A DNA stretch of 64,000 nt from Haloarcula vallismortis ATCC 29715 (lineage in GTDB: Archaea; Halobacteriota; Halobacteria; Halobacteriales; Haloarculaceae): contig NZ_AOLQ01000069.1 in assembly GCF_000337775.1 (NCBI RefSeq), positions 186,001-250,000 on the forward strand. Direction: 5' to 3'. The translations under genes and the position numbers were made by a program. Below are positions 34,278 to 48,323 of this stretch, one piece after another. The stretch's first letter is position 1, and the number at the start of each line of letters is the position of its first letter. The notes under the pieces are model-generated. The model was not told the origin of the DNA and did not search any database. It worked only from the letters and a program-made list of their open reading frames with translations.

Positions 34278-35468
34278 ATGCACATCGACACGGCTGTGGT
34301 CCTCGCTGCGGGTGAGGGGACTCGCCTGCGGCCGTTGACGCGAAACCGGCCAAAACCAATGCTGCCGGCCGCAAATCGTCCGATTCTCGAACACGTCTTC
34401 GATGCGCTAGTCGAGGCAGGCATCGAGAAACTGGTCGTCGTCGTCGGCTACAAGCGCGACCGCGTTCAGGACCACTTCGGTCCGACGTACCGTGGTGTTC
34501 CGATTTCCTACGTGAGCCAGACGAAACAGCTCGGAAGCGGGCACGCACTCCTCCAGGCACGAAGCGTTGTCGACGGCCCGGTTCTGGTGATGAACGGTGA
34601 CCGTCTCGTCGACGCCGCCACTATCGAGGCGGTAGAGGCCTCCTACGCAGAGACTGAACACACGAGCATCGCTGTTGTTGAACGGCAGGACACCAGTCGA
34701 TACGGTGCTGTCGAGGTACAGGACGGTGATATCGTCGACATCGTCGAGAAGCCACAACACGACGAGTTCAGGCTGATAAACGGCGGCGTGTACGCCTTCG
34801 ACGGTGACATCTTCGAAGCGATTGACGAAACGACGCGCCACGCCGGTGAGCTGGCGCTGACCGACACAATCGAACTCCTGCTGGAATCTGACCGTGTTCG
34901 AGCGGTCGAGGTCGACGGGATGTGGGTCGACGCGACCTATCCGTGGGACCTGTTGACTGTCGCCCGTGAGGTGCTGGCCCGGGGTCGGGTCGTTGAATCA
35001 GCCCGCGACGAGCAGGTCTGGGTCGACAACTCCGCACGCGTCCACGACGAAGCGACGCTCCAGTCACCGGCCGTCATTGGCCCAGACTGTGAGATCGGGC
35101 CGGACGCTGTCATCGGTCCGAATGTCGCGCTCGGACGCAACGTCACCATCGGGGCCAACAGCGTCGTCCAGCACACCGTTCTCGACGCAGACACGCGCGT
35201 GGACCCGAGCTCGACCCTCGTCGACACCGTCACTGGGCAGGACGTGAATCTCGGCGTCAACACGGTTGTCCCCGGCGGCCCGGCCGATGTCCAGGTCGGC
35301 ACAGAGGTGTTCGAGGACCAGCGCCTCGGGGCCGTCATCGCCGACCGCGCCGAAGCACTGGGCGACGTGAGCTTCGTCCCCGGGTCGCTTGTGGGGCCGA
35401 ACGCCAGCCTCGCGACCGGCGTGACAGTCGATGGGACCGTCCGCGAAGGCGCGGAGGTGGTCCGCTGA
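34278..35468 (+). CDS. glmU: Sugar-1-phosphate nucleotidylyltransferase with acetyltransferase-type repeats (GlmU-like)
   Basis: A 396-residue enzyme. Residues 1-235 are a nucleotidyltransferase: VVLAAGEGTRLRPLT signature, then KPMLP and the MNGDRL metal-binding Asp. Residues 260-396 are left-handed beta-helix hexapeptide repeats (IGPDCEIGPDAVIGPNVALG). Archaeal proteins of this layout both acetylate glucosamine-1-phosphate and attach UDP. The stop overlaps the glmS start by one base, which strongly supports UDP-N-acetylglucosamine synthesis as the role; UDP-glucose or dTDP-sugar formation remains an alternative. Confidence 0.85.
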   Translation: MHIDTAVVLAAGEGTRLRPLTRNRPKPMLPAANRPILEHVFDALVEAGIEKLVVVVGYKRDRVQDHFGPTYRGVPISYVSQTKQLGSGHALLQARSVVDGPVLVMNGDRLVDAATIEAVEASYAETEHTSIAVVERQDTSRYGAVEVQDGDIVDIVEKPQHDEFRLINGGVYAFDGDIFEAIDETTRHAGELALTDTIELLLESDRVRAVEVDGMWVDATYPWDLLTVAREVLARGRVVESARDEQVWVDNSARVHDEATLQSPAVIGPDCEIGPDAVIGPNVALGRNVTIGANSVVQHTVLDADTRVDPSSTLVDTVTGQDVNLGVNTVVPGGPADVQVGTEVFEDQRLGAVIADRAEALGDVSFVPGSLVGPNASLATGVTVDGTVREGAEVVR

Positions 35469-37258
35469 TGTGCGGAATCATCGGCTGTGTCGGTCGCGGT
35501 GACGAGACGCTCGAGACGCTCGTTCACGGCCTGTCGAAACTGGAGTATCGCGGTTACGACTCCGCTGGTGTCGCGCTGGCCAACGACCACATCGACCTGT
35601 GCAAACACTCCGGTAAAATCGCCGATCTCCGCGAGGCGCTATCTGATCGAATGCTCTCGGGGTCGGTCGGTATCGGCCACACCCGCTGGAGCACGCACGG
35701 GCCGCCGACCGACGAAAACGCCCACCCGCATCAGGATTGCACCGGCGATGTCGCAGTCGTCCACAACGGGATCATCGAGAACTACCAGTCGCTGCGGGAC
35801 GAACTCGTCAGCGCCGGCCACACCTTCACGTCTGACACCGATACGGAGGTCGTCCCACATCTGATTGAGGACGCGCTGGATGCGGGGGCCAACCCCGAAG
35901 ACGCCGTCAGAGAGACGGTCAGTCGACTCGAAGGCAGTTACGCCGTCGCCGTCGTCATCGCCGGCTGTGACTCGGTATTCGCCGCGCGAAACGACTCGCC
36001 ACTCGTGTTAGGTATCGACGACGACGCAACATATCTGGCCAGTGACGTGCCCGCCTTCCGGGACTTCACCGACAAGGTCATCTACCTCGCTGACGGGGAG
36101 TTCGCCCGCCTCAACGGTACCGGCTGGACCGTCACCGACACCGACGGTAATGTTGTCGAGAAAGACATCGACACTGTCCAGTGGGACCCCGAAGAGACCG
36201 GGAAAAGCGGCTATGACCATTTCATGCTCAAGGAGATCCACGAACAGCCCCGTGCGCTCCGGCAGTGCTTACGGGGCCGTGTCGACGAACTCGCCGGCAC
36301 GGTCGACATCGGCGACCTCGGTGATTTCTCCCCGACCGGCGTCCAGTTCGTCGCCTGCGGGACCTCGTATCACGCCGCCCTGCACGGCGCACAACTGTTC
36401 CGCGAAGCGGGCATCCCCGCCCAGGCGTTCCTCGCCAGCGAATACGCAACTGCGACCCCACCTGTTGGTGACGCACTCGTCGTCGGCGTCACACAGAGCG
36501 GGGAAACCGCCGACACCCTTTCGGCACTTCGGGCGGCCCGCCGCCGCGGCGCGCGCACGCTAGCCGTGACCAACGTCGTCGGCTCCACTGCGGCCCGCGA
36601 GTGCGACCATGCGCTGTACATCCGCGCCGGGCCGGAAATCGGCGTCGCCGCAACCAAGACCTTCGCCTCCCAGCTCGCCGCGCTGAACCTGCTTGCCCTC
36701 GGCACGTCGACGACCGGTGACGCTCGCCAGGTCATCAGCGCGCTCCGTGACCTCCCCGGTCACGTTCAAGAGGTGCTCGATGAATCCGCCGCTCAGGAGG
36801 TCGCTGAACTGTACCAGGACGCCAGCGCCTACTTCTTCATCGGCCGTGGGTACCAGAATCCCGTCGCACTCGAAGGCGCACTGAAAATGAAGGAGATCAC
36901 CTACAAGCACGCTGAGGGCTTCGCTGCGGGTGAGCTGAAACACGGCCCGCTGGCGCTGGTGACCGAGAACACGCCGGTGTTCGCTATCGTAACTGGCGAC
37001 GACGAGCGCGCCCGCAAGACGATTGGGAACGTCAAAGAAGTCGAGGCGCGGGATGCACCGGTAGTCGCGATTACGGACGGACAGAGCGACGTTGAACGAT
37101 ACGCCGACCACGTGCTCCAGATTCCAGAGACCCATCCGCGGGCCGCTGCAGTGCTTGCGAACACGCATCTACAGTTGGTGTCGTACCACACGGCTGCGCT
37201 GCTGGGGCGGAACATCGACAAGCCACGGAATCTGGCAAAAAGCGTGACGGTCGAGTGA
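35468..37258 (+). CDS. glmS: Glutamine-fructose-6-phosphate aminotransferase
   Basis: A 596-residue enzyme making glucosamine-6-phosphate. The N-terminal glutaminase domain begins MCGIIGCVG, with the cysteine nucleophile exposed after Met removal, and has HTRWSTHG and HNGIIENY. Two SIS domains follow (about 280-410 and 445-580), and the protein ends in KPRNLAKSVTVE, the catalytic tail. It overlaps glmU by one base, forming a two-gene hexosamine operon that draws on fructose-6-phosphate from Pgi. Confidence 0.96.
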   Translation: MCGIIGCVGRGDETLETLVHGLSKLEYRGYDSAGVALANDHIDLCKHSGKIADLREALSDRMLSGSVGIGHTRWSTHGPPTDENAHPHQDCTGDVAVVHNGIIENYQSLRDELVSAGHTFTSDTDTEVVPHLIEDALDAGANPEDAVRETVSRLEGSYAVAVVIAGCDSVFAARNDSPLVLGIDDDATYLASDVPAFRDFTDKVIYLADGEFARLNGTGWTVTDTDGNVVEKDIDTVQWDPEETGKSGYDHFMLKEIHEQPRALRQCLRGRVDELAGTVDIGDLGDFSPTGVQFVACGTSYHAALHGAQLFREAGIPAQAFLASEYATATPPVGDALVVGVTQSGETADTLSALRAARRRGARTLAVTNVVGSTAARECDHALYIRAGPEIGVAATKTFASQLAALNLLALGTSTTGDARQVISALRDLPGHVQEVLDESAAQEVAELYQDASAYFFIGRGYQNPVALEGALKMKEITYKHAEGFAAGELKHGPLALVTENTPVFAIVTGDDERARKTIGNVKEVEARDAPVVAITDGQSDVERYADHVLQIPETHPRAAAVLANTHLQLVSYHTAALLGRNIDKPRNLAKSVTVE

Positions 37259-37606: not shown

Positions 37607-39022
37607 TTATGACCTTCTGTACGCCATTATGATATCAATAATGACGCTCCAGACCTGCCTCGAAACAAGTTTCATATCGTAGCTGAACGACTGGTCACGG
37701 ACGTATTCGAGGTCGTATCGCAGTTTTTCGCCCGGCTCCTTTCCAGTCACATGATTGACCTGGGCCGGTCCGGTCAGGCCCGGTTTGACGAACCATCGCT
37801 TCTGCCAGTCGACGACACCGGTCCGGATATCCGAGTCCAGCTCCGGTCGTTCGGGCCGTGGCCCGACGACGCTCATATCACCCCGCAGTATCGACCAGAG
37901 CTGTGGAATCTCGTCCAAGTGCGTCTGTCGGAGTACTCGACCGACCGACGTCACGCGTGGGTCGACTCCACCCGCATCCTCGTCACTGATCTTCACGCCG
38001 GTTTCGTCCTCCGCGTTCTCGATCATCGACCGGAACTTGTAGATGGAGAACGTTTCGCCGAACACCGCTGTTCGGTCTTGCCGGTACAGTATCGAGCCAC
38101 CGTCGTCCATCTTTATTGCTACTACAATTCCGAGAATCACGGGCGATAGCACGACCAGCCCGGCCGACGCAAACGCGATATCGAACGCGCGCTTGAGAAT
38201 GTAATCCTGTATGTCCCAGGGCTCGATCTCTACGTCGACTAGAGTTCCGACTCCACCGCTGGCGGTCAGCACAGAGTCTGCATGGTTCCGATGGACTTTC
38301 GCGTCGACACCGTACTCGTAACAGGCGTCGAGAGCGCCGAAGAACTCGGCCCTGTCGGCGTGTTCAAACGCCAGCACGACCGTATCGATATCATACTCGA
38401 CGAGTACATCCTCGATTCGTGAGAGACCACCCAACCGTTCCAACCCGCTCCCGTTAGTTCCGCCGTCAGCGATGGCTCCGGTCCGTTCGACTGTCGTGAT
38501 CACGCTTGTCGGACAGAGATAGCCCAAGAGCGTTCCGTCGACCTCGCTTGCCACTTCCTCTATCACACGGAGGTCGTCGCCGACGACGATGGTCCGCTCG
38601 CCGTTTGCCGACGGCCGCTTCCGAATCCACACAAACCACGCGGGCAGTGCGACCAGTAACAGGGGGGTCACTAACACGACAGTCAAACGCGGAAGCTTGT
38701 ACGAATAGTCGAAGTAGCCAATTGTCGCCAAGACGAGAGCCGCCACGAGCACCCGCTTCTGGGCCAGCGCTATAGCGTCGAGAATCCTTCGCGGACGGGG
38801 CTTATACAGCGGGAGGAACACACTGACGACGACTGCGATTGTGACCAAGACTTCGATCGTGAACTCTGGCCCCGTTGGGGGGTCGGTCGGCAGTCGACTG
38901 AGTATCGGGATGGTTGTCGCTATCGACTGGATGGTAGCGTTGTTAACAAGTGCAACGGCGACCGCTGTCAGCACGACAACGCCGGCTACACTTGCGACCC
39001 GGTACCGCCAACCACTATCCAT
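37607..39022 (-). CDS. Polyprenyl-phosphate sugar-1-phosphate transferase (WbaP/WcaJ type)
   Basis: A 471-residue membrane enzyme that starts a lipid-linked glycan by moving a sugar phosphate from a nucleotide sugar to a polyprenyl phosphate. Four to five N-terminal helices (up to about residue 115), a Rossmann-like middle domain, and the catalytic C-terminus with FDIAFASAGLVVLSP (membrane re-entrant helix), YKFRSMIENAEDE, and KPGLTGPAQVNH. ATG 39020-39022 is preferred; the frame opens earlier but without hydrophobic sequence. Near glmU-glmS and aglF-aglM, it is a likely first step of surface glycan or exopolysaccharide assembly. Confidence 0.9.
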   Translation of the reverse strand: MDSGWRYRVASVAGVVVLTAVAVALVNNATIQSIATTIPILSRLPTDPPTGPEFTIEVLVTIAVVVSVFLPLYKPRPRRILDAIALAQKRVLVAALVLATIGYFDYSYKLPRLTVVLVTPLLLVALPAWFVWIRKRPSANGERTIVVGDDLRVIEEVASEVDGTLLGYLCPTSVITTVERTGAIADGGTNGSGLERLGGLSRIEDVLVEYDIDTVVLAFEHADRAEFFGALDACYEYGVDAKVHRNHADSVLTASGGVGTLVDVEIEPWDIQDYILKRAFDIAFASAGLVVLSPVILGIVVAIKMDDGGSILYRQDRTAVFGETFSIYKFRSMIENAEDETGVKISDEDAGGVDPRVTSVGRVLRQTHLDEIPQLWSILRGDMSVVGPRPERPELDSDIRTGVVDWQKRWFVKPGLTGPAQVNHVTGKEPGEKLRYDLEYVRDQSFSYDMKLVSRQVWSVIIDIIMAYRRS

Positions 39023-39378: not shown

Positions 39379-40134
39379 TTACTCGCTTGCAGCGATGTTT
39401 TCGGCGGCCATCTCCGGGTCAATCTCGCCCTGTAGCCGTTTCTCGGCCTGATCGCGGTCCTCAGGATACCCGATATCGTTCCGCCAGCCGTCCATGCGGA
39501 TCGCGTCGATCGTTCGGCCAGAGTGCAACAGGAGGTCAATCGCATCGCTAATCTCGTACTCGCCGCGATTGGAGGGCTGCACCAGATGGCAGGCGTGGAA
39601 GATAGCCGGTGTGAACGTGTAGAACCCGGTCATCACAAGGTTCGACGGCGGCTCTTCCGGTTTCTCGACGACTTCGGTGATCTCGCCGTACTTATTAGTG
39701 TCACAGACGCCGTAGCGCCCGGCCTCTTCCCAGGGCACTTCCTCGACGAGGAAGGCGGCGTCAGCACGTTCCTCCGCCTGACGGTTGACAACGTCTTGGA
39801 GGTTCGCTTCGAAGATGTTGTCGCCGAGCATCAACATGAAGTCGTCGCCGACGTGCTCCTCAACGGTCAGAAGCGCGTGGGCGAGGCCGTTCTGCTCGCG
39901 CTGGTGGGTGTAGGTGATTGGGACCCCCTCGAACTCGTCCTCAAAGTGATTAATGATTGCCTGCTTCTTGTAGCCGACAACTACCAGCAGTTCGTCAGCG
40001 CCTAGCTCGATCAGTTGCTCGAAACAGTGGGTCAGAATCGGTTTCCCAGCGACCTCTACCATTCCCTTTGGCTTGTCTTCGGTCAGCGGGCGGAGACGGG
40101 TCCCCTCGCCAGCGGCGAGTACGACAGCTTTCAT
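39379..40134 (-). CDS. aglF: UTP-glucose-1-phosphate uridylyltransferase, AglF-like
   Basis: A 251-residue nucleotidyltransferase: MKAVVLAAGEGTRLRPLTEDKPKGM signature, LMLGDNIFE metal-binding Asp, and VVEKPEEPPSNLVMTGFY. It lacks the beta-helix repeats of the GlmU-like protein at 34278. AglF of Haloferax makes UDP-glucose for the N-glycan. Here it is divergent from an AglM-like UDP-glucose dehydrogenase, so the pair should yield UDP-glucuronate. Start at ATG 40132-40134; a frame extension of three codons is unlikely. dTDP-glucose synthesis cannot be excluded. Confidence 0.87.
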   Translation of the reverse strand: MKAVVLAAGEGTRLRPLTEDKPKGMVEVAGKPILTHCFEQLIELGADELLVVVGYKKQAIINHFEDEFEGVPITYTHQREQNGLAHALLTVEEHVGDDFMLMLGDNIFEANLQDVVNRQAEERADAAFLVEEVPWEEAGRYGVCDTNKYGEITEVVEKPEEPPSNLVMTGFYTFTPAIFHACHLVQPSNRGEYEISDAIDLLLHSGRTIDAIRMDGWRNDIGYPEDRDQAEKRLQGEIDPEMAAENIAASE

Positions 40135-40222: not shown

Positions 40223-41530
40223 ATGAACGTCAGTATTGTCGGGAGCGGATACGTCGGGACGACGGTTGCGGCGTGTCTCGCTGATCTCGGACACGAGGTC
40301 GTAACGATAGACATCGACAAAGACATCGTCAACGCGGTAAATGACGGCGAGTCGCCGATACACGAACCCGGGCTCGACGACCTTGTGGCCGAACACGGTG
40401 GTGGGCGACTCCGGGCAAGCACCGACTACGAGGACATACGCGACACTGAGTTGACGATGCTAGCGCTCCCGACGCCCTCGAACGACGACGGGAGTATCGA
40501 CCTCCAGTTCATGGAAGCCGGTGCAGCATCCGTTGGCGAGGCGCTGGCTGGCGCCGAACGCTCGGCCGACGACCCGCATCTCGTCGTCACGAAGTCGACT
40601 GTCGTCCCGAACACGACCAAAGATCGACTCGCTCCCCGTATCGCCGACGCCGGTCTCGAACGCGGGACGGACTTCCTCGTCGCATCCAATCCCGAGTTCC
40701 AGCGTGAGGGGACGGCCGTCGCGGACTTCCTGAACCCTGACAAACTCGTCTTCGGAACGGACGACGACCGCGCAACAGACCTTCTCTATGAGCTCTACGC
40801 GCCGCTACGCGAAGCCGCTGACGGCGACGTGCCGGTCGTCGAGACCGGTATCGCCGAGGCCGAGATGATAAAGTACGCCAACAACACGTTCCTGGCAACC
40901 AAAGTCAGCCTCATCAACGATATCGGAAACATCTGCAAAGAGTTCGGTGTCGACGCCTACGAGGTCGCCGACGCTATCGGACTCGACGACCGAATCGGCG
41001 AGCAGTTCCTCCGGAGCGGCGTCGGGTGGGGCGGCAGTTGCTTCCCCAAAGACACGGACGCTATCATCGCCGCGGCGCGGGAGCAGGGCTACGACCCTGC
41101 AGTTCTCTCGGCGGCCGTGGAGCTGAACGACGCCCAACCCGAGCGCCTCCTCTCCCTCCTCGACACCCACGCCGACGTGTCCGGAAAACGCATCGCCGTG
41201 CTCGGCCTGGCGTTCAAGCCCGGGACAGACGATATCCGGAACACGAGAGCAGTGCCGGTCATCGAGGGACTGCAGGAACGCGGCGCAGACATCGTCGCCT
41301 ACGACCCAGTCGCGACCGAGAATATGCGCGAGCGCTATCCCGACATCCAGTACGCTGATTCGGCCGCGACCGCTCTTGGAGGTGCGTCCGGCGCCGTTGT
41401 TGTTACCGACTGGGACGAGTTTGCGGCGCTTGATGCTGAATTCGACGATATGGCTGACCCTATCGTCGTCGACGGCCGACGCGTCATCGAGCGGCGTGAG
41501 GGCATCACCTACGAAGGGTTGACCTGGTAG
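40223..41530 (+). CDS. aglM: UDP-glucose 6-dehydrogenase, AglM-like
   Basis: A 435-residue NAD-dependent enzyme that oxidises UDP-glucose twice to UDP-glucuronate. The N-terminal Rossmann motif [11 protein letters not shown], the middle helix with [18 protein letters not shown] (catalytic Lys and Asn), and the [12 protein letters not shown] motif with the catalytic Cys are intact; the C-terminal UDP-binding domain follows ([17 protein letters not shown]). AglM does this in Haloferax N-glycosylation. Divergent from aglF, with a probable leaderless start. Confidence 0.93.
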
Positions 41531-41535
41531 CGTGG

Positions 41536-42030
41536 TCAGTTACCTGCCTGTATTCGCCTGTCGATGACGGCTACCGTGCCGGCAGCGAATAGCGCTACCA
41601 CGAGCACGGTGGGATCAGAGGACACGTACAGGCTCGGCGTCGGCGGCCGCCAGCTCGTGAACGGATACAGCCAGGCGCTCGCTCGTCCGTCGGCGTACAC
41701 TCGCATGCCATCAAGAAGTAGCGACGTGAGGCCGCCGAACGTCACGAGGCCGAACACCCGTCTCCAATGCCGACGTTCGAACGCGACGGCGATAATGCCG
41801 GACAGTAGCAGTACTCCGCCGAGCGTGGAGAGAGGCTTATATGTGAATGGAATGCCGAGAAGTGCTTCGACTGTCTCTTCGTGCACTACAATTTCGACTT
41901 TCACCAGATCTGGAATCGCCGCACCGCCCATTCCGACGACTATCCAGCGCTGATCGAGCCAGCCGACACCCCCGCTCGCGATTGTGAGCAGGATGTATGG
42001 TACGAGCAAGTGCGTCAGCAGGTCAGCCAT
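41536..42030 (-). CDS. YdjM-like membrane metal-dependent hydrolase
   Basis: A 164-residue membrane protein with about four helices. MADLLTHLLVPY, IPDLVK and LLDGMRVYADG place His and Asp residues as in the DUF457/YdjM family of membrane-bound metal hydrolases, though resemblance is moderate. It overlaps the upstream OB-fold-like gene by 8 bases, so the two are co-translated. It lies at the end of the sulfosugar operon and could trim or process a glycan or lipid; no evidence of the substrate. Confidence 0.6.
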   Translation of the reverse strand: MADLLTHLLVPYILLTIASGGVGWLDQRWIVVGMGGAAIPDLVKVEIVVHEETVEALLGIPFTYKPLSTLGGVLLLSGIIAVAFERRHWRRVFGLVTFGGLTSLLLDGMRVYADGRASAWLYPFTSWRPPTPSLYVSSDPTVLVVALFAAGTVAVIDRRIQAGN

Positions 42031-42496
42031 CGCGGGCCTCCAGTGTCCACGTATCACGGTCGATTCGCCAATGCCGGAAGAACAGCAGTAGGAATCCAAG
42101 TGCACCGACAGCCGAAGCGCCGTACTTGTAGAACTCGACCCACCGGCTGCTGTTGATGACTTCGACACGCTCGGCCGCTATCGTCTGCTCTGGTTCGAGC
42201 GTCCCGTACACTTGGACGACGCCACCGGGTTCGGCGGCTGTACTCGCCCCAGTGACCCCGAGCGGAACTGTCGTTCCATCGCTCTCGGCTTTGATCTCAA
42301 TCCTGTCTTCGCTGATCGCTGTCACGGTTCCAAACACCATCACCCGCTGTCCCACGTACGAGTCGTACTCGGCTGAAAGGTCCGCAGCGTCGGGGTACGG
42401 GGACCATTTCTCCTCCGTAACTTCCGCGTGGACGAACAGTCCGCCGAGTGTCAGAAACAGTGCGAGCACGATGACAACACGAACCCAGACGTGCAC
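42023..42496 (-). CDS. Membrane-anchored OB-fold-like protein
   Basis: A 157-residue protein with a helix at each end (about 4-24 and 127-143) and an exterior beta-barrel between (GQRVMVFGTVTAISEDRIEIKA, GGVVQVYGTLEPEQTIAAERVEVI), the pattern of small OB-fold proteins. It starts with GTG at 42494-42496 and overlaps the next gene by 8 bases. It follows the STT3-like gene by 77 bases and is likely part of the same operon. Function unknown; a sugar- or nucleic-acid-binding accessory is possible. Confidence 0.6.
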   Translation of the reverse strand: MHVWVRVVIVLALFLTLGGLFVHAEVTEEKWSPYPDAADLSAEYDSYVGQRVMVFGTVTAISEDRIEIKAESDGTTVPLGVTGASTAAEPGGVVQVYGTLEPEQTIAAERVEVINSSRWVEFYKYGASAVGALGFLLLFFRHWRIDRDTWTLEARDG

Positions 42497-42573
42497 ACGG
42501 TGTTCTCTCTCGGTGGGTACAATGGTCGTTTCGCTTCAGTAGCTTACAGAGGACAATAGTTCCGGTGTGGCAG

Positions 42574-44907
42574 TCATCCGACCGTGACGTTGCCGCCGTC
42601 GTACACGGCCTGTTCTGGAACGTCTACTGTCTTTTCGTCACCGCTGTCGGTCGTCACAGTGTATGTTCCGGGGTTCGCAACAGTAATTGCAAACTCACCG
42701 TCCTGATTGGCCGTCGTTTGGCGCTCGTAGTCGACTTCTCTGTCTGAGACGGCCACTGTCGTCGCTACGGAGACGGTCGAGTCCGGGGCTGCATTCCCTT
42801 GTATCGTGGCTCCAGAGACAACTGCGAACGCTTTGTGGCTTCCGTCCAGACTCACGAACACAGGACGATAGTGTGCTAGTCCGCCCACATCGCCGTTCCG
42901 ACTGCCGAAGTGCTGGTGTAGCCGAACGTACATCGTGGTCGGCTCCTCAAGCGACGTTTCTGTGGTAGCGACGTATCCGACTCGTCCGGAAATCCGATTA
43001 TGGGCCTGCTCGGGGCCCGTTACAGAGACGAATGGTTCGTACGTCTGCCGGGCGTAACCGTAACTCTCTGCCTCGCCGTTGACGAAGTAATTGTACATCC
43101 GGTTCTGCCCCCACTGGCTGAGCACGTAGTTTTCAGGGTATTCGAGGCCGCGCTCGGCGGCGTCGGCTTCGATTGCAGTCGCCGCATCGTACGCCCCCTC
43201 ATCGGTAATCACCTGACTCGTTTTTACCGGGACCTGTACCATACCGAGTGAACCGAATAGGAGGAACAGCACGAATAGTGACCCAAGCGCCCGGGTATCC
43301 GGAACGAGCGCGTCTCGAAGACCGTCATCACCGGTCGTCACCACGGGCCGAGCGATGTCGACCCATGCGGCCGCCCAGACGAAGGTGAGGCCGGCAAATA
43401 GCGCGAGGAATGAAGCTAATTCGCCAACGAAGCGAACTTGAATGACGGCCAGAGCGAACAGCACCCATGCGTAGCTACTGGTGACGAGCCATCCGCTTCT
43501 GTCGTTGCGAGCGAGGTCGAGACCCCACGCCATCGCCGGGAGCGCTAGGAACAGCGTTAGGCCGAGCAAAAGCAGGAAACCAAAGGCATCAGTGTTGAAC
43601 AGGCCGTACGTCTCGGCGATAGAATCGGAGCGAAACAGCGCGTCGAGCCGGCTATTGAACGTGCCCCACTGTTCCGTGAAGCCAAAACGGAAGACAAGGA
43701 AGCCGACGACGCCAAGCCCGAGGTCGACCACAGCCAGTTGTCCGACAGTACCACCAAAGCGCCTGGCTGCTTCTGCTGTCGCAATGACGACGACAGTGCC
43801 CAGCGTCAGTAGTGCTGGCGCACTAGTGACGAGCGCAGTTTGCCATCCGGTGACAGTATGAATACTCCAGGCGAGTATCGCACCGAAGCTAACACCGGCA
43901 AGGACCGGCGCGTTCCTGACCAGTGCCGATCGGTCGTTTGAGACATCCAGCAGTGTCTGTCCTAGCACAACCAGACTGACCGGCAGGACGAGCAACGGCC
44001 CGGCCTCCCACGCGAGCACCTGGCCGGCGGTCCCGACACCGATACCGACCGCGGCAACCCATGGCTGTGGTCGCCGAAGGGACGTTCGGTTCGTGGCCGT
44101 CGTTAATGCGACTACGAGTGCAAGGGCGGTGAGCCCCAGCCACGGATAATCGAAGGCGTGGTGATCTGCGAACCCCAAACTGGTTCGGAAGGCGTGGCCC
44201 GGAATGAACGCGAGGAAAAGGACCGACGCGAGACCGACACGCCGGTCGCTGGACACCCGAACTGCGAGCAGATAGAGCAGGACGGCCGTGACGAGTGCTG
44301 ATACGACAGGATACCAGGCGAGAACGTGGCCGATGACTTCTTTGCTCCCGCCGAACAGGCTTGCCACCCACCAGAGCGTCGCGACCATGAGCGGCTCACC
44401 GTTGGTTAATCCACCTGGCAGCACGGAGAGCGCACCGAAATCAGCCGCGCTGCCGGCGTTCGCCGCGACCTGTTCGACATGGTATCTGTAGTAATATGGG
44501 TCGTTACTTGACAGAACGATGTCGCCGCCGCGGTAGACCGATCCGATGACGTACGTTCGAGCGACAAACACGACCGCTAGAGCGGCGACGAGCAGGCCGG
44601 TTGCTTGTGCGTCGAAATCAAACCGTATCACGTCACCGAGATCCATCCTGCCCCCGCTGTCGCTATCGACTGCGGAGTCACCATTAAGGGCGGCCCGCAC
44701 CGCGTCGGGGTCGGCGACGCGGTACTGCTCACCGTCTTTCTCGACGATGCCAGCAGAGACAAGTTCGCCGAACTGGCCCGAATCGATTGGGATGTCCTCG
44801 AACGTCCAGCCGTCCTGTTCGGCGTCGACGGCCAGCACCGCTTCTGTCGCATCTCGTAGCTCGGGCCGGTCATCGAGTACCGCTCCCGCCCCGGGCGTGT
44901 CGCTCAT
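42574..44907 (-). CDS. STT3/AglB-like oligosaccharyltransferase, divergent
   Basis: A 777-residue membrane protein. Residues 12-78 look like a winged-helix domain. Twelve or so helices follow (about 103-560), with family motifs SNDPYYYRYH (N135, D136), FADHHAFDYPW (D248-H250) and SIAETYG (the TIxE-type Glu432). The signature WWDxG near the C-terminal domain is missing; at that place the protein reads QWGQN (598-602). A carboxypeptidase-like beta domain ends the protein. It lies in one operon behind two epimerases and an SQD1-like enzyme. It probably transfers a glycan to protein or lipid, with altered chemistry or substrate. A winged-helix start on a glycosyltransferase is unusual. Confidence 0.75.
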   Translation of the reverse strand: MSDTPGAGAVLDDRPELRDATEAVLAVDAEQDGWTFEDIPIDSGQFGELVSAGIVEKDGEQYRVADPDAVRAALNGDSAVDSDSGGRMDLGDVIRFDFDAQATGLLVAALAVVFVARTYVIGSVYRGGDIVLSSNDPYYYRYHVEQVAANAGSAADFGALSVLPGGLTNGEPLMVATLWWVASLFGGSKEVIGHVLAWYPVVSALVTAVLLYLLAVRVSSDRRVGLASVLFLAFIPGHAFRTSLGFADHHAFDYPWLGLTALALVVALTTATNRTSLRRPQPWVAAVGIGVGTAGQVLAWEAGPLLVLPVSLVVLGQTLLDVSNDRSALVRNAPVLAGVSFGAILAWSIHTVTGWQTALVTSAPALLTLGTVVVIATAEAARRFGGTVGQLAVVDLGLGVVGFLVFRFGFTEQWGTFNSRLDALFRSDSIAETYGLFNTDAFGFLLLLGLTLFLALPAMAWGLDLARNDRSGWLVTSSYAWVLFALAVIQVRFVGELASFLALFAGLTFVWAAAWVDIARPVVTTGDDGLRDALVPDTRALGSLFVLFLLFGSLGMVQVPVKTSQVITDEGAYDAATAIEADAAERGLEYPENYVLSQWGQNRMYNYFVNGEAESYGYARQTYEPFVSVTGPEQAHNRISGRVGYVATTETSLEEPTTMYVRLHQHFGSRNGDVGGLAHYRPVFVSLDGSHKAFAVVSGATIQGNAAPDSTVSVATTVAVSDREVDYERQTTANQDGEFAITVANPGTYTVTTDSGDEKTVDVPEQAVYDGGNVTVG

Positions 44908-44955
44908 GTATCTTCTCTTTCCGGTCTGGCGAATAAATCCATCGGGACTCGATGT

Positions 44956-45951
44956 CTACGTGGTCGCCGACTCCAGTACCGTCCGAATCGCTGACTCGAC
45001 GTTGTGTTCCGGCGTCCAGCCCAGCGCGTCGGCCGTCCGCTCTGTATCGACCGGGAACGAGTCGACAAGCGTCTCGTCGTCGCCGCGTGGGTTTTCGACC
45101 AGTTCCACGTCGGCGTCGATATCGGCGACTTCGGCGGCGACGTCTTTAACCAGTTCGGCGACGGTGTGGACGCTCGGGTCCTCGTCGCTGGCGATCTCGT
45201 ACTTCTCGATGCCGGTCTCACCACGGTCCAGTTGCTCCAGCAGCCGCTCGCAGCTGTCGACGTACGCTCTGGCCACGTCCTTGACGTGGATGAAGTTCCG
45301 GGACTGGGTTCCCGGCTCGTAGACGGTCAGCGTCTCGCCGGCGAGCGCGCGGTTCACGAAGAAGTTGATGACGGTTCCCTTCGAGACGGTTTGACCGTCT
45401 ATCTCGTGACTGCCGTAGAGGTTCGATATCATGAACTGGTGGGCCGGGAACGCGCCGTCGGCGTACGTCTCGATAGCGCGCTCGTTGAGCAGTTTCGTCC
45501 GGCCGTACCAGTTTAGCGGGTCCCGTGGGTGATCGACCGTGATGGGGAATTCCTGTGGGTCACCGATGACGGCCATCGAGAACGGGAAAATCAGCGCCGC
45601 GCCTGTCTTGCGGCAGAACCAGGCGATGTTGTCGGTGCCCTGAACATTGACTTCGTAGGCCAGATCTTGCTTCGCTTCGCAATCGTCGACGCCGGAAATC
45701 GCGGCGAGGTGCATCACGACGTCGGCCCCATCTAGCGCCGCTTCCAGCCGGTCACGGTCCCGGATGTCGACGTGTTCGATGTCGACATCGCCGACGGACC
45801 GGACGCTGCCGAGATAGAAGTTGTCGATGGCGGTGATCTCCCAGTCAGGGTGGGCCTGCTGTAGCTCGTAGATGACGCGGCTGCCGATGTAGCCTGCGCC
45901 GCCGGTGACGGCGACGTGGGGCGACTCGTTCGTGGGTTCTGTCTCAGACAT
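44956..45951 (-). CDS. NAD-dependent epimerase/dehydratase (extended SDR), first of the operon pair
   Basis: A 331-residue extended SDR. GGAGYIG (residues 17-23) binds NAD; the catalytic Tyr149-x3-Lys153 (YGRTK) and Ser125 are present. It is close to UDP-hexose 4-epimerases and related NDP-sugar dehydratases; the precise reaction cannot be read. It overlaps the next epimerase gene by 8 bases, between the SQD1-like gene and the STT3-like gene, 48 bases before the latter. Confidence 0.82.
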   Translation of the reverse strand: MSETEPTNESPHVAVTGGAGYIGSRVIYELQQAHPDWEITAIDNFYLGSVRSVGDVDIEHVDIRDRDRLEAALDGADVVMHLAAISGVDDCEAKQDLAYEVNVQGTDNIAWFCRKTGAALIFPFSMAVIGDPQEFPITVDHPRDPLNWYGRTKLLNERAIETYADGAFPAHQFMISNLYGSHEIDGQTVSKGTVINFFVNRALAGETLTVYEPGTQSRNFIHVKDVARAYVDSCERLLEQLDRGETGIEKYEIASDEDPSVHTVAELVKDVAAEVADIDADVELVENPRGDDETLVDSFPVDTERTADALGWTPEHNVESAIRTVLESATT

Positions 45952-46876
45952 TGGTGGTGAATTTCTCCGCGAGGTCGCGGACGCCTTCGCGAAGCGTCCA
46001 CGATGGTTCGAAGCCGGTCCGACTCAGTCGGTCGAAGTTGACGTGATAGGACGGGCCGGGGTGTTCGTCTTCGAGGTAGGTCACGTCGACCGGGGCGACT
46101 TCCTCGGCGACGATGTCGGCGATTTCGGAAATCTGGTAGTTCGACTCCATCGACCCGACGTTGTACACCGGTTCGTCCCAGGACTCGGGCTCGCACGCGG
46201 CTTCTGCGTACGCGCGGGCGGCGTCTTGGACGTGGATGAACGGCCGCCAGTTCGAGCCGTCGCCGTAGACCGTCAGCGGGCGGCCGGTCAGCGCGCGGAA
46301 CACGAAGTAGTTCACAACGAGGTTGAACCGAATGCCCGGCGAGTGACCGAAGTTGGTGGCCATCCGCAGGGCGGTGCCGGTCATTTCGAACTCCTCGCAG
46401 TACTCTCGCAGCAGTGTCTCGGATTCCAGTTTCGTCTCCGCGTAGGGGTTAATCGGGTCAGGGTCGACCGTCTCGTCGATGTCGGTGCTGGTCGCGCGGC
46501 CATAGACGTTACACGAGGAGGCAAAGACCACGTGGTCGACGCCGAGTTTCCCCGCCGCGGTCAGGACGTTTTCGGTGCCGTCGTAGTTGATGGCGAACGT
46601 CTCCTCGCGGCGGTCGTGGGTGCTTGACGCGCCGGTGATTGCCGCGAGATGGATGACGCGGTTGACGCCGCGCATGGCGCTTTCCACGTCGCCGTACTCG
46701 CGGACATCGCCGCGGCGGAATTCGAGCCCATCCCCGAGCGTCCCAAGTAGCGCACGCGGCGACCCCGAGGAGAGATCGTCGAAGACGACGACGCTATCCA
46801 CGCGGTCGTCCGCTCGGAGCAGTGGAATCAGCGCGCTGCCGATGTAGCCACAGGCCCCGGTGACCAGCACGTCCAT
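45944..46876 (-). CDS. NAD-dependent epimerase/dehydratase (extended SDR), second of the operon pair
   Basis: A 310-residue extended SDR: GACGYIG (7-13), Ser120/Ser121, Tyr145-x3-Lys149 (YAETK). The SSCNVYG and NPYAETK stretches are typical of UDP-glucose/GlcNAc 4-epimerases. It lies 2 bases after the SQD1-like gene and overlaps the next SDR by 8 bases, so all three are translated as a unit. Galactose or another epimerised sugar is a likely product (inference). Confidence 0.82.
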   Translation of the reverse strand: MDVLVTGACGYIGSALIPLLRADDRVDSVVVFDDLSSGSPRALLGTLGDGLEFRRGDVREYGDVESAMRGVNRVIHLAAITGASSTHDRREETFAINYDGTENVLTAAGKLGVDHVVFASSCNVYGRATSTDIDETVDPDPINPYAETKLESETLLREYCEEFEMTGTALRMATNFGHSPGIRFNLVVNYFVFRALTGRPLTVYGDGSNWRPFIHVQDAARAYAEAACEPESWDEPVYNVGSMESNYQISEIADIVAEEVAPVDVTYLEDEHPGPSYHVNFDRLSRTGFEPSWTLREGVRDLAEKFTTNV

Positions 46877-46878
46877 CG

Positions 46879-48051
46879 TCAGTCCTCGCTCAGGACGCCC
46901 GGCAAGAAGCGGTCCTCGTGGGCTTCGATGGTGTCGGCGTAGCGGGTCAGCGTCTCGAAGATGTCGGCGACGCCGTCCTCGAAGGACTGTGACTGGCCAC
47001 CGATGAGGTCGGCGTAGCGGTCGTTTTCGATCTCCATCTTGTGGGTCTCGTCCTCGTCGCGGGGATTTTCGAAGTGCTCGACAGCCACGTCGAGGTCGAA
47101 CTCGCTGCCCACATCAGCGATGGTCTCGGCTATCTCGACGATGCTGATGGCGCGCGTGACCTGATTGTACACCGTCAGTCCCTCGGGGCGCTCGTCGGGG
47201 TCGGTCAGGGCCACCTCGGCCAGTCCTTCGACGGCGTCCTCAAGCGAGATGAACGGCTTGCGCTGCTCGCCCTTGCCGTAAACGGTGACGGGGTAGCCCG
47301 CAACGGCCTGTGCACAGAAGCGGTGCGTGACCGTGCCGAAGTAGTAGTCGAAGTCGAAGCGGGTCTTAAGCCGGCCGTCCGCGCGGGTCTCCTCGGTCTC
47401 GGTCCCGTAGACGATGGCCGTTCGCACGTCCGAAATAGGGATGTCGAACTGCGTATGGGCCAGCCGCATGTTCTGGGCGTCGAATCCCTTCGTCGCGTGG
47501 TACCAGCTCCCGCCCATGTTGGGGAAGGGCACGTCGTCGCGTTCGCCCTGGTTCTCCATCGTCGCGCCGCCTTCCGGAATCGGGAACTCCGGCGCGCCGT
47601 AGACGCCCGTCGTCGTCGTCTCGACGAAGTGGGTGTCGGTGAGGTCGTGCTCTTCGAGCCCCCACAGCAGGTTTCGCGTCGCCTGGAGGTTGTTGTGCTG
47701 AGTGTAGTTCGCCCGCTCGCCGTTGATCTGTGAGTACGGTGCGGAGGGCTGGGCGGCAGTGTGTACGACGACTTCGGGTTCGTGGACCGAGAGCAGTTCG
47801 TCGACGAATGATTTCTCGGCGAGGTCGCCCTCGACGAAGGAGAGGTTCGTCAGGCCGTGGACCTCGCGGGCCGCGTCGAGGCGTTCGTCGATGCTTGCGA
47901 CCGGTGTCGCGCTCGTCGCGCCGACATCCTCGACCCACTCTCTTCGGGCGAAGTTGTCGACGAGCAGCACTCGGTCGTCCGTTCGGTCCGCGATTCGCAG
48001 TGCGGCCGGCCACCCGACATAGCCGTCGCCGCCAGTGATGAGAATCGTCAT
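46879..48051 (-). CDS. UDP-sulfoquinovose synthase-like enzyme (SQD1/Agl3 family)
   Basis: A 390-residue extended SDR. Beyond GGDGYVG (7-13) it has features of SQD1 that ordinary epimerases lack: RANYTQHNNLQATRNLLW, the Thr run at 145-148 and Tyr184-x3-Lys188 (YHATK), at almost the same positions as SQD1 Thr145, Tyr182 and Lys186. SQD1 turns UDP-glucose and sulfite into UDP-sulfoquinovose; Sulfolobus Agl3 does so for N-glycans. First gene of the operon that ends with the STT3-like enzyme. I recall sulfoquinovosamine in the N-glycan of Haloarcula hispanica, which fits. A plain epimerase is less likely. Confidence 0.8.
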   Translation of the reverse strand: MTILITGGDGYVGWPAALRIADRTDDRVLLVDNFARREWVEDVGATSATPVASIDERLDAAREVHGLTNLSFVEGDLAEKSFVDELLSVHEPEVVVHTAAQPSAPYSQINGERANYTQHNNLQATRNLLWGLEEHDLTDTHFVETTTTGVYGAPEFPIPEGGATMENQGERDDVPFPNMGGSWYHATKGFDAQNMRLAHTQFDIPISDVRTAIVYGTETEETRADGRLKTRFDFDYYFGTVTHRFCAQAVAGYPVTVYGKGEQRKPFISLEDAVEGLAEVALTDPDERPEGLTVYNQVTRAISIVEIAETIADVGSEFDLDVAVEHFENPRDEDETHKMEIENDRYADLIGGQSQSFEDGVADIFETLTRYADTIEAHEDRFLPGVLSED

Positions 48052-48052
48052 A

Positions 48053-48073
48053 GTTACTCAGTTAGTGAGTAAC
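48053..48073. promoter_or_regulatory. Inverted repeat at the promoter of the sulfosugar operon
   Basis: GTTACTCA and TGAGTAAC form a perfect 8-base inverted repeat around GTTAG, 2-22 bases upstream of the SQD1-like ATG. An AT-rich element (minus-strand ATTTATCA, 48083-48090) lies just outside it, so the repeat would cover the transcription start. A repressor operator is the natural reading. Confidence 0.5.
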
Positions 48074-48250
48074 TTCACTGCGTGATAAATCTTCTGTTCA
48101 GATGCATGTTGTTTTTATCCCGCGTCGCCTCCCACAGGCCCAGCGTGGTTCCCGGAACAGGCTCGTCTGGCCAACGTCGAAACTACTCCACTTCCCGCCG
48201 TTTCGCAACCGTTAAAACCGACCCTGTCTTTCTTCCATTTGCTATCGCAC

Positions 48251-48323
48251 GGGCCGGTGGGGTAGCCTGGTATCCTTCGGCCTTCGGGTGGCCGTAACCG
48301 CGATTCGAATTCGCGCCGGCCCA
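48251..48323 (+). tRNA. tRNA-Pro (anticodon CGG)
   Basis: A complete 73-base cloverleaf without intron. The acceptor stem pairs 48251-48257 with 48316-48322 (GGGCCGG/CCGGCCC), followed by discriminator A. The anticodon stem CGGCC (48278-48282) pairs with GGCCG (48290-48294) around a loop with anticodon CGG at 48285-48287. The T arm CGCGA-TTCGAAT-TCGCG is perfect. CCA is not encoded. A T-run (48324-48328) follows as a terminator, and an A/T-rich TTAAAA lies near 48212, about 37 bases upstream, as a possible TATA element. Modified at positions 15, 54 and 55 by enzymes encoded in this same window (family knowledge). Confidence 0.95.

Follow-up and report, generated by a model that had tools for sequence, protein, structure and literature searches.

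A candidate sulfosugar supply module for N-glycosylation in Haloarcula and its operator-based link to aglJ

Organization of the locus and its counterpart in H. hispanica

In the window, that is, the whole 64-kb stretch of Haloarcula vallismortis DNA analysed here, an operon that begins with a gene for an SQD1-like enzyme lies directly behind a putative operator. Its features and flanking genes are listed below from the upstream side.

48251-48323: tRNA-Pro (CGG), shortly upstream of the operon promoter.
48083..48096, minus strand: TATA-like box with a purine-rich element upstream; the minus strand reads CAGAAGATTTATCA.
48052-48074, no strand: putative operator, an exact inverted repeat AGTTACTCA-5 nt-TGAGTAACT, equal to AGTTACTC-N7-GAGTAACT, immediately adjacent to the SQD1 start codon.
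46879..48051, minus strand: SQD1-like NAD-dependent sugar-nucleotide enzyme (390 aa) from a haloarchaeal subfamily within the UDP-sulfoquinovose synthase family; its gene opens the operon.
45944..46876, minus strand: SDRa, an extended SDR and candidate 4-epimerase with an intact S/Y/K triad (SSCNVYG, YAETK).
44956..45951, minus strand: SDRb, a second extended SDR, with YGRTK retained and VIG instead of VYG.
42574..44907, minus strand: STT3/AglB-like membrane protein (STT3-like) with an extra N-terminal domain; metal site retained, WGQNR in place of WWDYG.
42023..42496, minus strand: small membrane protein with no family match.
41536..42030, minus strand: YdjM-like membrane protein (PF04307, 25.5 bits, slightly under the cut-off of 29).
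40223..41530, plus strand: aglM, UDP-glucose dehydrogenase, flanking (NF041297, 759 bits, cut-off 670).
39379..40134, minus strand: aglF, UTP-glucose-1-phosphate uridylyltransferase, flanking (NF041313, 437 bits, cut-off 400).
37607..39022, minus strand: bacterial-type sugar transferase, a polyprenyl glycosylphosphotransferase (PF02397, 195 bits).
34278..37258, plus strand: GlmU-like sugar-1-phosphate nucleotidyltransferase and GlmS, UDP-GlcNAc suppliers as identified from their sequences.

The gene order and spacing given in the first-pass annotation agree exactly with the gene models, in which all operon genes lie on the minus strand, the SQD1-like and SDRa genes are separated by a 2-base gap, SDRa and SDRb overlap by 8 bases and a 48-base gap precedes the STT3-like gene. 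The YdjM-like gene overlaps the preceding small membrane protein gene by 8 bases and is thus translationally coupled to it, and the small membrane protein gene also adjoins the STT3-like gene in several other genera.

The genome of H. hispanica (G007), which was recognized by exact matches of all checked published aepG (HAH_1206) primers at G007:C3:1140708-1142774 (primers from PMC9943897), contains the whole set of eleven genes between GlmU and SQD1, both included, at about 455-468.8 kb. Four clusters have been put forward as candidates for glycosylation in this species, one of them comprising the eleven tags HAH_0486-HAH_0496 (PMC9943897), and from the number and position of these tags we infer that HAH_0486-0496 is the counterpart of the present cluster, with a one-to-one match of tags and genes; the SQD1-like gene would then be HAH_0496. 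No further paper that mentions these tags turned up in a full-text search of the open-access literature. S-layer proteins of H. hispanica are reported to be N-glycosylated at Asn with 6-sulfo-QuiN(b1-6)[Glc(a1-2)]Gal, and DolP-QuiNS is present in the cells (PMC9943897). The sulfoquinovosamine-containing Haloarcula N-glycan mentioned in the first-pass annotation is a published structure from a species with the same operon. The sulfosugar of this glycan is a 2-amino sugar, and an amination enzyme was not seen among the operon genes.

The SQD1-like enzyme and the conserved core module

In phmmer searches, the SQD1-like protein matched plant SQD1 (1qrr/1i24) over nearly its full length with 247 bits, and the next PDB family reached 25 bits. 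In a phylogenetic tree, it fell among UDP-sulfoquinovose synthases and was separated from SDRa, SDRb and UDP-GlcA-epimerase-like proteins (support 100/99), and within the synthase group the haloarchaeal SQD1-like sequences and one Omnitrophota sequence formed a separate clade (support 100/98). Structure prediction, which the first-pass annotation had proposed as a check, gave an AlphaFold2 model (pTM 0.83) with SQD1 as its closest fold (TM 0.83) and epimerases at 0.67 or below. A grouping with plain hexose epimerases had been named there as grounds for giving up the assignment; sequence, tree and fold agree in placing the protein closest to the UDP-sulfoquinovose synthases, and the assignment therefore stands.

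Comparison with SQD1 of Arabidopsis and Agl3 of Sulfolobus acidocaldarius revealed both conserved and altered parts of the active site. Along with the fold and full-length homology, the haloarchaeal enzymes share the catalytic triad (T147, Y184 and K188, in 67/67 sequences), and the SQD1-specific G149, H97, Q101, SAPYS, YHxxK and YGKGxQ are retained in the SQD1-like protein. In contrast, four blocks differ, namely KLGTMGEYG, GEQ/AEQ, DLNQGV and GQTRG in canonical enzymes, which are replaced by ETTTTGVYG, AAQ, DVRTAI and EQRKP in all haloarchaeal SQD1-like sequences and largely also in the Omnitrophota relative. Correspondingly, neither the UDP-sulfoquinovose synthase fingerprint [ST]MG...Yx3K (PMC8987622) nor the Glu required in Agl3 was found in any of the 67 sequences, M being changed to T and E to V/I, and the match to the equivalog model NF041015 (UDP-sulfoquinovose synthase) reached 354 bits, under the cut-off of 575. 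The positions of R101, M145 and E147 of Agl3 are replaced throughout, and in Agl3 the exchange M145A abolishes activity and E147A severely reduces it (PMC4388408). Since the required M and E are replaced throughout the haloarchaeal proteins, these enzymes, previously seen as a distant 'cluster IV' (PMC4388408), are likely to act on a substrate different from that of SQD1 and Agl3, while probably still working as sulfosugar synthases. We also considered the R101 position as a marker of an amino-sugar pocket and dropped it, because P is frequent there in canonical-type sequences as well. Named loci with SQD1-like proteins of 95-98% identity belong to Haloarcula species; the Omnitrophota bacterium (L272) encodes a relative that is 50% identical and carries the haloarchaeal signature TTTTGVYG.

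The two SDRs matched GalE/RmlB-type (SDRa) and GalE/RmlD-type (SDRb) profiles, all under cut-off, and the best PDB relatives of SDRa were MoeE5 and UDP-GlcNAc 4-epimerase. We surveyed 40 loci picked from SQD1-positive genomes of many genera of Halobacteria. SDRa was found near SQD1 in 36/40 loci and SDRb likewise in 36/40, usually in the order SQD1-SDRa-SDRb. GlmS/GlmU lay within six genes of SQD1 in 17-18/40 loci, a TrmB-type gene lay near it in 20/40, and the STT3-like gene in 4/40. These data indicate that the SQD1-like enzyme, SDRa and SDRb form the conserved core, with the STT3-like protein outside it.

A common operator and a TrmB-type regulator

The inverted repeat noted in the first-pass annotation as operator-like proved to be exact and conserved, and on its sequence and position we regard it as a putative operator. 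It fits the motif TACT-N7-8-GAGTA of Halobacterium salinarum TrmB (PMC4158304), here as TACT-N8-GAGTA, and is the sole such site in the window. Of 71 distinct SQD1 loci, which represent many genera, 60 have TACT-N8-GAGTA beginning 19-23 nt upstream of the start codon. In SQD1 loci, the site is directly downstream of a TATA-like AT-rich block, a CAGAAGATATTTA-like block aligning just upstream of it at other loci; this is the position expected for a repressor (PMC4158304). The longer form GTTACTC-N7-GAGTAAC occurs exactly twice in the 3.9-Mb genome and the reversed control pattern not at all, so the operator is well beyond chance. Among Haloarcula genomes, it was found twice in 22/32 and once in 6 more, with near-complete or partial cases besides and no match of the reversed control.

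The second site in the genome lies upstream of a TrmB-domain gene (L199:2516-3358, on G000:C5). Divergent from this regulator gene, across the operator, is aglJ (TIGR04182, 462 bits, cut-off 325), which encodes the first glycosyltransferase of N-glycosylation. In Haloarcula, the regulator gene is unlinked from the SQD1 operon and was found through the common operator. The arrangement regulator-operator-aglJ holds across Haloarcula and several other genera, with the second site in the AglB cluster: in H. hispanica, AglB (HAH_1202) is at 1135191-1138016 and the regulator (G007:C3:1151745-1152593; HAH_1213, judged from its position) and aglJ together span 1151745-1153992, and at three further loci (L207, L209 and L210) the regulator is close to canonical AglB. 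Moreover, four genomes (G061, G082, G240 and G252) have the contiguous order aglJ - operator - regulator - operator - SQD1 - SDRa - SDRb, or this order reversed, and the same regulator adjoins SQD1 in 20/40 loci of other genera. In two genomes (G002 and G069), the operator precedes aglJ with no adjacent regulator in the examined stretch. A third operator was found in G178 and G181 of genus g10, about 340 bp ahead of an S-layer-type glycoprotein gene (L211:6223 and L212:6664) with an S-layer signal peptide, a PGF-CTERM and an S-layer glycoprotein match that is partial and under the equivalog cut-off. Further exact operators away from both SQD1 and the regulator occur at G253:C197:2861 and at G218:C2:595543, the latter between convergent genes.

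The regulator has a clear PF01978 DNA-binding domain (69.6 bits, cut-off 25.6) but no match to the sugar-binding domain PF11495, for which one ortholog scored 17.1 bits against a cut-off of 22.2. It resembles H. salinarum TrmB (VNG1451C) in its DNA-binding domain and in the motif architecture of its putative site (PMC4158304) and is a different protein, without a clear PF11495 domain. The known TrmB of H. hispanica (HAH_1548) was considered as the regulator and set aside: the motif fits, but the published ChIP-seq table of this protein contains neither HAH_049x nor aglJ (PMC10817205).

Across 242 genomes of the class, SQD1 was present in 92, the regulator in 80 and the exact operator in 68, and the three were strictly nested, every operator-positive genome having the regulator and every regulator-positive genome having SQD1 without exception, with neither regulator nor operator in the 150 SQD1-negative genomes (Fisher p about 1e-51 and 1e-40, ignoring the relatedness of genomes). 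Twelve SQD1-positive genomes had no regulator. Within genus g17, the regulator was present in 8/8 SQD1-positive and 0/22 SQD1-negative genomes, a pattern that is harder to ascribe to shared ancestry. The operon and aglJ thus carry a common operator and are linked in genomes, and joint expression is predicted from sequence. The operator linkage to aglJ, the proximity to AglB, the third operator at an S-layer gene and the published glycan with DolP-QuiNS together place the module in N-glycan synthesis, and SQD1-SDRa-SDRb is therefore quite likely a sulfosugar supply module for N-glycosylation under a dedicated TrmB-type regulator. We found no earlier report of an operator and regulator linking sulfosugar genes to aglJ in the open-access literature, although subscription journals may differ.

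The STT3-like protein, alternative explanations and a proposed pathway

In the first-pass annotation, the operon was taken to make a sulfosugar glycan and also to attach it, with the STT3-like enzyme as oligosaccharyltransferase. The STT3-like protein is a real AglB/STT3 homolog: it aligns with the canonical AglB of its own genome with an HHalign probability of 99.8, the best folds for its AlphaFold2 model (pTM 0.70, loop 589-625 of low confidence) are those of A. fulgidus AglB (TM 0.61-0.63), and it shares with AglB/STT3 enzymes the C-terminal AglB_L1 domain and the metal site, with both DXD-type motifs (ND(P) at 135-136 and DHH at 248-250) and the EL5 Glu (E432). Its gene, moreover, directly follows the SQD1 module in 13/14 Haloarcula genomes of the class sample. 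However, the TIGR04154 score is 142.6 bits against a cut-off of 450, the DK motif was not found, and WWDYG, which with DK/MI binds the sequon Ser/Thr (PMC8342417), is replaced by WxxNRxxNY in 30/30 homologs examined; a canonical AglB with SWWDYG is encoded elsewhere in the same genome (G000:C12:130262-133099). Beyond the genus, few genomes have the STT3-like gene near SQD1, its usual neighbour being a polyprenyl sugar transferase (14/25 loci), and within the genus it evolves fast (39-86% identity, vs 84-99% for SQD1). The STT3-like protein is thus unlikely to be an N-oligosaccharyltransferase, and that the operon attaches its own glycan is highly improbable; sulfosugar supply, as suggested by the SQD1 family, the H. 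hispanica glycan and the operator shared with aglJ, is the part of the first-pass proposal that we retain. A role as dedicated sulfosugar transferase was likewise rejected, since the gene shows a weak association with SQD1 across genomes (odds ratio 2.15): of the 242 genomes, 129 have the STT3-like gene, 63 with SQD1 and 66 without it. The protein may transfer a glycan to some other acceptor, and the widespread haloarchaeal STT3/AglB paralogs with WxxNRxxNYFV are oligosaccharyltransferase-like, with a probably different acceptor. The extra N-terminal domain of the STT3-like protein (residues 8-84), a difference from AglB/STT3 enzymes, recurs in an EMC3/TMCO1-like membrane protein of the same genome (L003:874-1764).

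Like SQD1 and Agl3, the module might instead simply convert UDP-glucose to UDP-sulfoquinovose, for use in an exopolysaccharide or glycolipid rather than an N-glycan. The presence of aglM and a polyprenyl sugar transferase in the same cluster would suit this explanation, as would the acidic, sulfate-rich exopolysaccharide of H. hispanica (PMC5467301), but that polymer is reported to contain sulfate, not sulfonate (PMC5467301), the gene to which the operator ties SQD1 is aglJ, a member of the AglB cluster, rather than any known exopolysaccharide gene, and the active-site signature is unlike that of every canonical UDP-sulfoquinovose synthase examined, which makes this explanation unlikely. The same altered signature raises the question of whether the enzyme, with the M and E of TMGEYG lost, became an epimerase or dehydratase. 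Indeed, TTTTGVYG is closer to the GalE-type SxxxVYG than to KLGTMGEYG, and the NF041015 score is consistent with such a change; we nevertheless consider it decidedly unlikely, given that SQD1 proteins are the nearest relatives by sequence, tree and fold, that the SQD1-specific residues and blocks named above are intact and that a 6-sulfo sugar is present in the host's glycan.

For the N-glycosylation supply module, the following pathway is proposed. AglF/GlmU-type enzymes would supply UDP-glucose or UDP-GlcNAc, from which the SQD1-like enzyme would form a UDP-6-sulfo-sugar through oxidation at C4, removal of water across C5-C6, addition of sulfite to C6 and re-reduction at C4. One SDR would probably act as a 4-epimerase that provides a partner sugar such as UDP-Gal. 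AglJ would load the first hexose onto dolichol phosphate, the sulfosugar would be loaded separately (compare the DolP-QuiNS of H. hispanica), and canonical AglB, encoded in the other cluster, would transfer the glycan to Asn. The TrmB-type regulator would bind GTTACTC-N7-GAGTAAC at two places, namely the SQD1 start, from where it would obstruct transcription, and the divergent promoter of its own gene and aglJ; we therefore propose that the supply of sugar and the entry into the pathway are switched jointly. More tentatively, the haloarchaeal subfamily might be a UDP-sulfoquinovosamine synthase that converts UDP-GlcNAc (or UDP-GlcN) and sulfite to UDP-6-sulfo-QuiN(Ac), with the TrmB-type repressor sensing sugar or sulfur and coupling the module to aglJ. 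Hints in this direction are the 2-amino sugar of the published glycan, GlmS/GlmU beside the module in about 17/40 loci, the amination enzyme not seen in the operon and the joint change of residues lining the SQD1 pocket.

As in the Agl3-dependent N-glycosylation of Sulfolobus, an SQD1 relative would make the sulfosugar for N-glycans (PMC4388408), whereas the haloarchaeal subfamily is distinct and is connected with aglJ through a putative operator and a regulator of its own. No gene assignment for the sulfosugar of the haloarchaeal N-glycan was found in the open-access literature; candidate genes are now named, in a species with working deletion methods. In addition, a dedicated operator and regulator that join two distant loci are predicted for the N-glycosylation pathway. 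If the enzyme indeed uses UDP-GlcNAc, it would catalyze a new sulfosugar-forming reaction.
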